Source: a virus
Reading direction: 5' to 3' (one strand)
Length of the DNA: 25,465 nt
IMG/VR virus record: IMGVR_UViG_3300030419_002672
Location: 1 to 25,465 of that record
The notes beneath the pieces are model-generated. The model saw nothing but the letters and a program-made list of their open reading frames with translations, did not search any database and had not been told where the DNA came from. Positions 3,127 to 22,843 of this stretch are shown piece after piece. Each line of letters starts with the position of its first letter. Position 1 is the stretch's first letter. A program made the translations under genes and the position numbers.

Positions 3127-3666
3127 TTAAAAATTTGTCCCAAAAAATACTGAGTTATCTGTTGTTGCTACTACTGCAGCTTCTGTATAATCAACATCTA
3201 AATACATATAAGCAACTCTTAAATATTTAAATCTTGCAGGTCTACCAGTACATTTAATTTTTATTTGTACATTTTCAAGACCTGTATAATCCCAAGCTGT
3301 CCCAGGAGATTTAAGTGTAGTGGCACTACCACTATAAGCAGGATATGCTGAGTTATCTACAGCTACTGTACTTGCAACTCGAAGTATACCAGTTCCTGTT
3401 AATTGTATTGTCATATTCACACTTCCAGTTCCAGTATAGTGTGCATGAACCCTTGGGGTAACTGTCACATCTTCTCCAAAATCAATACCTGATTCTGCTA
3501 CAGATGGATTGGCAAGTGTATATGTTATTTCCCCATTTTGCAATGTTTCCCAAACATAAGTAGAATCATCATCTTCATCTACAAGATCAACAAAGTCACT
3601 ACCAGTACTACATGACCAATTATTAGTACCTGTTGTTCCATCTGGCAATAAAATAAAATTAGCCAT
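3127..3666 (-). CDS. Beta-rich virion or fibre-associated protein
   Basis: The product starts MANFILLPDGTTGTNNW and has 179 residues of mostly alternating polar and hydrophobic sequence rich in Thr, Ser and Gly, as expected for a beta-sandwich. The acidic segment DLVDEDDDSTYVW lies near the N-terminus. ATG at 3666 overlaps the TAA of the upstream gene (TAATG). An in-frame ATG at 3696 would add ten residues but lies inside the upstream gene, so 3666 is preferred. The position among fibre genes suggests a receptor-binding or appendage protein. Specific function unknown. Confidence 0.75.
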   Translation of the reverse strand: MANFILLPDGTTGTNNWSCSTGSDFVDLVDEDDDSTYVWETLQNGEITYTLANPSVAESGIDFGEDVTVTPRVHAHYTGTGSVNMTIQLTGTGILRVASTVAVDNSAYPAYSGSATTLKSPGTAWDYTGLENVQIKIKCTGRPARFKYLRVAYMYLDVDYTEAAVVATTDNSVFFGTNF

Positions 3667-4379
3667 TAAAAATTTAAACTCGCAACGCCATAGCAAACTT
3701 CTTCATCTGCATCCCAATAAAAACTTAAAATATCTCTTTTACTACCACCATCAGTTAAATCTGGTGCAGTACCACCAGACCATCTAATAGCTCCACCAGT
3801 ACCACCATCATTATCAGCATCATTACCAGCAGAATCTAAAGCCTTAAAAGCAGCAATAGTCCTCGTTGAACCATCCTGTTCTACAACTAAAACAAAATTA
3901 CCAGAAACATCAGGAAATTTTAATGATAATGTTCCACTTATACTTCCACCAGTTAAATCTAAATGAGCTTTATTACAATTTGTAAAATCAATAGTAACAT
4001 TTGTATCATCGTCATAATTGGCTGGCTTATCGAATCCAGCTGCACATGCCTCAAACTTTACCACTCCACCAGCATCTAAGACAATATCTTTAGCTGCTGA
4101 AGTTTCAATCTCTATTTCAACGCTAGAGGTTGAACCAGCAACTTTTAAAAGATTAGTACTAACATAAATAAAGGCACGTTCAGTTCCAGCAGAAAATATT
4201 TGCAATCTTTTATTAGAGCCAACTTTGAAATTAATATCTTCATCAGATACTACATTTATATCTGTTCCATCACCTACAATATGTTCACCAGCCTCTCCAA
4301 ATATAAGCTTCTTATTTGAAGCCAACGTAGTATCTTGCACTAAATTATGCTTATTGATTGATATTTTATTAGCACCCAT
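3666..4379 (-). CDS. Tail fibre or appendage structural protein
   Basis: The 237-residue protein is beta-rich and Gly/Asp/Thr-rich. The N-terminal half has short repetitive strands (SNKKLIFGEAG, DINFKVGSNKRLQIF) like fibre shafts. The C-terminal half includes LTGGSISGTLSLKFPDVSG and GGTAPDLTDGGSKRDILSFY, a kind of sequence common in fibre-like proteins of uncultured marine phages. It is three bases from the upstream fibre gene and overlaps the next by one base. No enzyme motif is seen. Role in adsorption is inferred from composition and neighbours. Confidence 0.75.
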   Translation of the reverse strand: MGANKISINKHNLVQDTTLASNKKLIFGEAGEHIVGDGTDINVVSDEDINFKVGSNKRLQIFSAGTERAFIYVSTNLLKVAGSTSSVEIEIETSAAKDIVLDAGGVVKFEACAAGFDKPANYDDDTNVTIDFTNCNKAHLDLTGGSISGTLSLKFPDVSGNFVLVVEQDGSTRTIAAFKALDSAGNDADNDGGTGGAIRWSGGTAPDLTDGGSKRDILSFYWDADEEVCYGVASLNF

Positions 4380-21516: not shown

Positions 21517-21556
21517 AAGCCCTAGTTAATTAAATTTAGCTAGGGCTTTTTGTTTC
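21517..21556 (+). terminator. Rho-independent terminator after first early gene
   Basis: AAGCCCTAG (21517-21525) pairs perfectly with CTAGGGCTT (21540-21548) around a 14-base loop, and is followed by TTTTGTTTCC. The combination of 9-bp stem and U-tract on the plus strand is a standard intrinsic terminator. It lies 26 bases after the stop of the 127-residue gene, so later early genes need readthrough, antitermination or another promoter. Confidence 0.82.
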
Positions 21557-22065: not shown

Positions 22066-22290
22066 ATGAGTAAGCAAGGGTTGGCTTGGAGTAAGTTAAA
22101 TGATTATGTATCAAGCAAGACTGGAATGCACTTACATGATTTCTCTGATATTGATATGTATATGTGGATTGATGATGACATGACAGAAAAGGAAATAGAT
22201 GATTTAATTCCAGAAATGGCATGGGACTTGTTAGATAATAATGGTATGGACAGAGATACATTAGATGAATTAATATATGGGGAGGAATAG
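22066..22290 (+). CDS. Small acidic protein, unknown function
   Basis: The 74-residue product starts MSKQGLAWSKLNDYVSSKTG and is strongly acidic after residue 25 (DIDMYMWIDDDMTEKEIDD, then ELIYGEE at the end). There is no cysteine or membrane segment. ATG at 22066 follows AAAGGAAAGGAAGGGCAGT. Small acidic proteins may mimic DNA and inhibit host DNA-binding proteins, but that is a general possibility only. It ends one base before the next start. Confidence 0.7.
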   Translation: MSKQGLAWSKLNDYVSSKTGMHLHDFSDIDMYMWIDDDMTEKEIDDLIPEMAWDLLDNNGMDRDTLDELIYGEE

Positions 22291-22291
22291 T

Positions 22292-22609
22292 ATGCCAGCA
22301 TCACCTGTAGTAAAACAATTACCACATTATCCTAAAGGATATAGAAGGTTGGAGAAAGTAATAATACCAGATAGTAAAACAGACCACTATTATAGTGTAT
22401 GGTATGACAAGACTGTAAATGAGAAAGGTAGAGATGAATGGTATGCATCACTTATGTGCTGTCAGATGTATGACAGACCAAGTATTACTGATAATTGGTA
22501 TCACGTAGAAGAGTTATCAGAAGAACACTATGATTTAATCTGTACAATAGAGGTTGTATTTGATATATCATTTCATAGGAGTATATTTACACTGAACCCT
22601 TCGGAGTGA
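22292..22609 (+). CDS. Early hypothetical protein, 105 aa
   Basis: The product starts MPASPVVKQLPHYPKGYRRL and contains DHYYSVWYDKTVNEKGRDEW, a mixed strand and aromatic segment, and CTIEVVFDISFHRSIFTLN near the end. The chosen ATG (22292) has GGGGAGGAATAGT just before it. An in-frame ATG at 22277 overlaps that site and is less likely. Two adjacent cysteines and a third later are present. It is the last gene before the structured gene-free stretch. Function unknown. Confidence 0.72.
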   Translation: MPASPVVKQLPHYPKGYRRLEKVIIPDSKTDHYYSVWYDKTVNEKGRDEWYASLMCCQMYDRPSITDNWYHVEELSEEHYDLICTIEVVFDISFHRSIFTLNPSE

Positions 22610-22620
22610 GAAGGAGGAAC

Positions 22621-22706
22621 GCATACAGCTAGGTCTGTATGTTATACTAGAAAAGGGCAGTTCGAAGTAATAGTAGATTAAATACTAAACATGTAGTAGC
22701 TGCCCT
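22621..22706 (+). ncRNA. Candidate structured RNA element 1
   Basis: The strand has stops in all three plus frames here. CATACAG (22622-22628) and CTGTATG (22635-22641) form a perfect 7-bp hairpin. AGGGCAG (22654-22660) and CTGCCCT (22700-22706) pair perfectly and enclose TAGTA-GATTAAA-TACTA, a 5-bp stem with a 7-base loop at 22671-22687. A competing pairing, CAGCT (22626-22630) with AGCTG (22698-22702), corresponds to the outer stem of the neighbouring element. Sequence similarity to that element supports a real repeated structure. Whether it is a free RNA or a leader element cannot be told. Confidence 0.45.
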
Positions 22707-22723
22707 AAGATTTGTTACAAAAA

Positions 22724-22817
22724 ACCAGAGCTGATAGTCTGCAGCCTATAAGATAGCTATCGAAGTAATTATAGAGGCATAAAGATACATAAAGGTAACT
22801 GTATTGACAGCTCTGGT
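22724..22817 (+). ncRNA. Candidate structured RNA element 2, cloverleaf-like
   Basis: ACCAGAGCTG (22724-22733) pairs without error with CAGCTCTGGT (22808-22817), closing a 94-base element. Inside, three short hairpins are possible: ATAG/CTAT (22734-22737 with 22746-22749), CTAT/ATAG (22757-22760 with 22771-22774), and ATAC/GTAT (22785-22788 with 22801-22804). The outline recalls a cloverleaf, but the T-loop signature, a 5-bp anticodon stem and CCA-type end are missing, so it is not called as a tRNA. It shares TCGAAGTAAT and other blocks with element 1. The next gene starts 27 bases later. Confidence 0.5.
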
Positions 22818-22843
22818 AAATATTAAAAAAGAAAGGAAAGAAA

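Follow-up and report, generated by a model that had tools for sequence, protein, structure and literature searches.

In phage lambda, sib is a 3′ retroregulator of int, and the early region of T7 has RNase III sites. The put RNA of phage HK022 consists of two adjacent stem-loops that lie in early phage transcripts, near the early promoters (PMC9378689). Structured RNA domains in bacterial 3′ UTRs have been called highly unusual, the L17 downstream element being one of them (PMC2864571). Here we describe a structured RNA, element 1, lying behind a 110-aa gene in the early block of an uncultivated phage. It appears to found a new family of a known general kind, that of cis-acting structured RNAs between phage genes.

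The Phage, Its Relatives, and the Upstream Gene

The window (the whole stretch of DNA analyzed, 25,465 nt, an IMG/VR virus record) belongs to a tailed phage with terminase, portal, and major capsid genes. Among the matches listed from an annotated phage collection, relatives of the terminase show only ~24–27% identity, and the upstream 110-aa protein has no relative in that collection. Queries of GTDB genomes for a host of the phage, made with the upstream gene or the terminase, gave no match. The terminase and the upstream protein each served as query in scans of viral contigs, from which the relatives were collected. Their sequences are strongly diverged and share a common order: P0 with GAGTGA, GGAGGA, P1, TATAC, and P2, after which come AU-rich sequence and the next gene.

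The upstream gene (22277–22609, + strand) is the conserved partner of element 1, and its start is more likely at 22292 (MPASP...) than at 22277. Orthologs occur in 16 other contigs with 38–48% identity (97% in L104). The protein was assigned to no Pfam family and no PHROG, and a fold search gave nothing significant.

Architecture of Element 1

Element 1 is one conserved RNA on the + strand, composed in order of P0, GGAGGA, P1, UAUAC, and P2. P0 (22598–22614) pairs CCTTC (22598–22602) with GAAGG (22610–22614) around the loop GGAGTGA. It places the 5′ limit of the element at 22598, within the end of the upstream gene and further 5′ than in the original prediction. A stem at this position is found in most relatives' folds, in a shifted register. 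The stop codon of the upstream gene (22607–22609) sits in the P0 loop. Several relatives have their stop codon further upstream, yet they retain the sequence around GAGTGATGGAGGA, GAGTGA included, which indicates conservation independent of coding. The conserved GGAGGA linker (22613–22618) overlaps the 3′ arm of P0, and GGAGG is found in every relative of the family.

P1 (22621–22642) pairs GCATACAG (22621–22628) with CTGTATGT (22635–22642); it contains the 7-bp hairpin originally noticed, CATACAG (22622–22628) with CTGTATG (22635–22641). The TATAC linker that follows (22643–22647) is invariant, with the same letters in 13/13 distinct sequences. P2 (22654–22706) pairs AGGGCAG (22654–22660) with CTGCCCT (22700–22706), as had also been read from the sequence. 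P1 and P2 are both supported by covariation. The stretch was correctly taken to be noncoding on the + strand, as no + strand gene spans it.

Evidence for Selected Structure

In an alignment of 13 sequences, 13 of the 16 modeled pairs change on both sides (6/8 in P1 and 7/8 in P2) and 98.1% of the cells are paired, a level of covariation that none of 500 shuffles equals. The alignment was trimmed by hand, with apical loops removed, linkers shortened, a few linker letters adjusted, one A inserted in L103 ahead of P1, and the short loop of P1 in L091 spelled out; the untrimmed sequences were therefore folded singly as well. In the 14 contigs these give folding z-scores of −2.4 to −5.8, the + strand folding better in every one, and the individual best folds of the relatives contain P1 and P2 in nearly all cases (in L088 a longer stretch folds P1 in another way). 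The base of P1 is a G-U pair in 11/13 sequences, and G-U pairs are frequent, which points to the + strand, in agreement with the folding preference. That P1 and P2 are under selection as RNA structure is thus secure. Their loops are very variable in both letters and length.

Conserved pairing across related phages, and the failure to find a coding frame in them, are what the original prediction of a selected RNA structure implied; compensatory change is seen in element 1 across relatives and, for the neighboring element 2, in two compensated pairs, none broken, in one relative. The distance from GGAGG to TTATAC varies through all three frames among the relatives, which also lack a conserved start codon, so element 1 is not a reading frame, and a coding peptide after GGAGGA was rejected. 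A closing pair between GUUAU (after P1) and AUAAC (after P2) can be seen by eye in many relatives; it was discarded, showing no compensatory change and being missing in the window. Element 1 was also likened to protelomerase sites, but the palindrome that these require is missing, and the likeness was dropped.

Seen from the window alone, the pairing is less impressive. The strong stems first reported are present but only mildly unusual: perfect 10-bp stems within 120 nt number 5 in the window and 6.25 on average in shuffled windows, so a long stem is not significant by itself, and the folding z-scores of elements 1 and 2 in the window are about −3. The word TCGAAGTAAT does occur twice (22662–22671 and 22760–22769), as noted at the outset. 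The old tandem duplication proposed for the two elements is nevertheless unsupported, since their similarity is matched by 98/2000 shuffles and by 77/1035 pairs of 97-nt blocks from the same region; the elements are not copies of one another. The supposed pair-preserving change from CAGCT/AGCTG to GAGCT/AGCTC is not confirmed, as homology of the two elements is unsupported. Moreover, the bases of CAGCT (22626–22630) belong to P1 and its loop, and AGCTG (22698–22702) overlaps the 3′ arm of P2; pairing of the two would require both stems to be broken.

Distribution and Genomic Context

Element 1 lies directly 3′ of the upstream-gene ortholog in thirteen other distinct phage sequences. A covariance model matches it solely behind such orthologs, once per record, and these matches include contigs retrieved by the terminase alone. 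DNA-pattern scans of IMG/VR in which the protein was not used returned the same phages and chance matches. The upstream gene is present and element 1 missing in L101, and in L105 and L106 P0 is accompanied by a single hairpin. A search with the families of Rfam 15 at their gathering scores (including C4 antisense RNA, the L17 downstream element, tRNA, riboswitches, and ribozymes) gave no match in the window and 16 related loci, and a permissive Rfam search gave one match, at chance level. ARAGORN detected no tRNA cloverleaf, either in the window or among 12 related stretches. These results leave no support for the idea of a decayed tRNA-like pair.

The gene after element 1 comes from eight families among 14 contigs, which disfavors the leader switch for that gene that had been suggested. 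Its start codon usually lies 16–30 nt past the modeled end of element 1, so the stems leave its ribosome-binding site uncovered.

The sole + strand intrinsic terminator found in the early block follows the block's first gene (21517–21548), upstream of element 1. The eight relatives scanned have an intrinsic terminator at the equivalent place, and in the blocks scanned it precedes element 1 by 0.6–1.3 kb. This strong terminator and its counterparts give the early block the look of being controlled by termination. The letters behind P2 are AAGATTTGTTAC in the window and AAATTTAATAA in relatives, and scans for + strand terminators found no GC-rich stem with a direct U-run at this place. Promoter-like matches in the region are no more frequent than in shuffles.

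Element 2 and Other Structured RNAs

Between P2 and the next gene, the window and one close relative (L104) contain a separate branched RNA, element 2 (22724–22817, + strand). Its closing stem pairs ACCAGAGCTG (22724–22733) with CAGCTCTGGT (22808–22817), enclosing 94 nt as first described. Inside are arm A (22744–22751/22769–22778, with a tip hairpin 22752–22754/22759–22761) and arm B (22785–22789/22800–22804). Element 2 was not found in more distant relatives, where the P2 loops of element 1 are unrelated. Between the window and L104 there are two compensated changes and no broken pair among 26 modeled pairs, a pattern with a probability of ~0.0002 for four random stem changes in a simple simulation. 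Column shuffles do equally well in 117/500 cases, two sequences being too few for a formal covariation test. Hairpin-templated mutation could mimic the compensation, the tip changing from GATAGCTATC to GGTGTACACC, each palindromic. Element 2 is a lineage-specific folded RNA, distinct from element 1, at the same junction, and it probably acts like element 1.

Other structured insertions lie close to the same place in L028/L103 and in L051/L086, and with element 2 they give a junction that seems to gather folded RNAs. L103 has two more long-stem stretches (~170 and 80 nt) between P2 and the next gene (3442–3736). The word GTCATCATTGGATAAAAGTTAAC is found at the P1 tip in both L086 and L100, and a slightly altered copy lies within a separate structured insertion of L086 (word sites L086:3394–3417, L086:3823–3846, and L100:3375–3397). 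This recurrence of a sequence suggests that RNA modules may have been exchanged.

Relatives also contain a second, unrelated RNA family, a three-way junction between early genes. Its closing stem is AGGGGTGGG/CYCACCCC, its two arms change on both sides, and its 3′ strand CACCUUUC is conserved. This family was described from an alignment and individual folds only, at L119:642–726 (− strand), L125:9177–9257, L120:12762–12848, L132:2711–2785 (− strand), and L116:5281–5361 (− strand). A counterpart in the phage studied here would lie past the window's end. In L120, 31 bases (14767–14797) match part of that contig's three-way-junction RNA on the opposite strand with 93.5% identity, so that two stretches of early transcript could pair.

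Possible Roles of Element 1

We propose that element 1 acts in cis between cistrons and influences how the early message is processed or how stable it is, a role inferred with a probability of roughly 0.45. This cis role in processing or 3′ protection is preferred because of the position of the element, its variable loops, and the variable genes downstream. Element 1 would act from within a co-directional early block, where it occupies the intercistronic 3′ UTR of the 110-aa gene. Processing of the polycistronic transcript may take place close to element 1, for instance where the sequence past P2 is AU-rich. P1–P2 would then be left as a 3′ barrier stabilizing the upstream message, by which expression of the upstream gene would be set apart from that of the next gene, and GGAGGA and UAUAC could be recognition points for a nuclease or an RNA-binding protein. 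The P1 of L091 has just 7 bp, which is short for RNase III. The invariant UAUAC and GGAGGA demand more than a generic barrier and argue for specific recognition, and they keep in play both a protein-binding and a put-like role.

In the protein-binding case, element 1 would be a regulatory site where an RNA-binding protein, upstream-encoded or another of phage or host, recognizes GGAGGA and UAUAC between the stems, regulating its own expression or that of the operon. Conservation is highest in the letters of the single-stranded linkers, and element 1 and the upstream gene travel together; the upstream protein, however, has no detectable RNA-binding family or fold, and we consider such a site somewhat unlikely. 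In the put-like case, the stems of the nascent RNA would bind the elongating polymerase and allow passage of later termination signals in the early block. Two adjacent stem-loops in an early transcript recall HK022 put (PMC9378689). Put antiterminates with no protein partner, by way of the β′ zinc-binding domain of RNA polymerase, and is expected just past an early promoter and ahead of the terminators that it overcomes, whereas element 1 comes after a gene, and the single + strand intrinsic terminator detected in the early block lies 0.6–1.3 kb before it. The lengths of its P1 and P2 loops also differ greatly, and antitermination is thus decidedly improbable.

A discrete folded block between genes could also be a free small RNA with trans targets in the host or the phage. 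With no U-run terminator behind P2, promoter-like matches at shuffle frequency, and unconserved loops, this seems very unlikely. A signal at the level of DNA is hardly credible, be it a palindromic operator or a promoter whose extended −10 would be TGTTATAC: TGTTATACT in the window does look like an extended −10, but the base following TATAC differs among relatives, the arm-to-arm distance of P1 is widely variable, G-U pairs are frequent, and the + strand folds better. The promoter at TGTTATAC was rejected, as neither its spacing nor its last base is conserved. Beyond the preferred role in message processing or stability, element 1 might represent a new class of phage RNA, a two-stem module with an invariant UAUAC linker that RNA polymerase, or a protein of phage or host, would specifically recognize, and that would switch early-operon expression within a network that includes the unrelated structured RNAs of the same operons. 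We regard this as an unlikely extension.

Comparison with Known Systems

With element 1, uncultivated phages that have no close kin in the annotated phage collection searched gain an RNA family supported by covariation, tied to a single 110-aa gene without Pfam or PHROG assignment. Few structured RNAs of 3′ UTRs are on record for bacteria and phages; this one is amenable to compensatory mutation. Like lambda sib and the T7 RNase III sites, it consists of intercistronic or 3′ stem-loops in cis, lying behind the gene in all members and with stems that covary; unlike them, it has three stems, conserved GGAGGA and UAUAC linkers, and a P1 of down to 7 bp. It resembles HK022 put in its two neighboring stem-loops and, in the smaller relatives, in size, but differs in lying behind a gene and downstream of a terminator, and in its very variable loops. 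With the L17 downstream element it shares the nature of a structured RNA in a 3′ UTR, while it has no Rfam match, follows another gene, and belongs to a phage genome.
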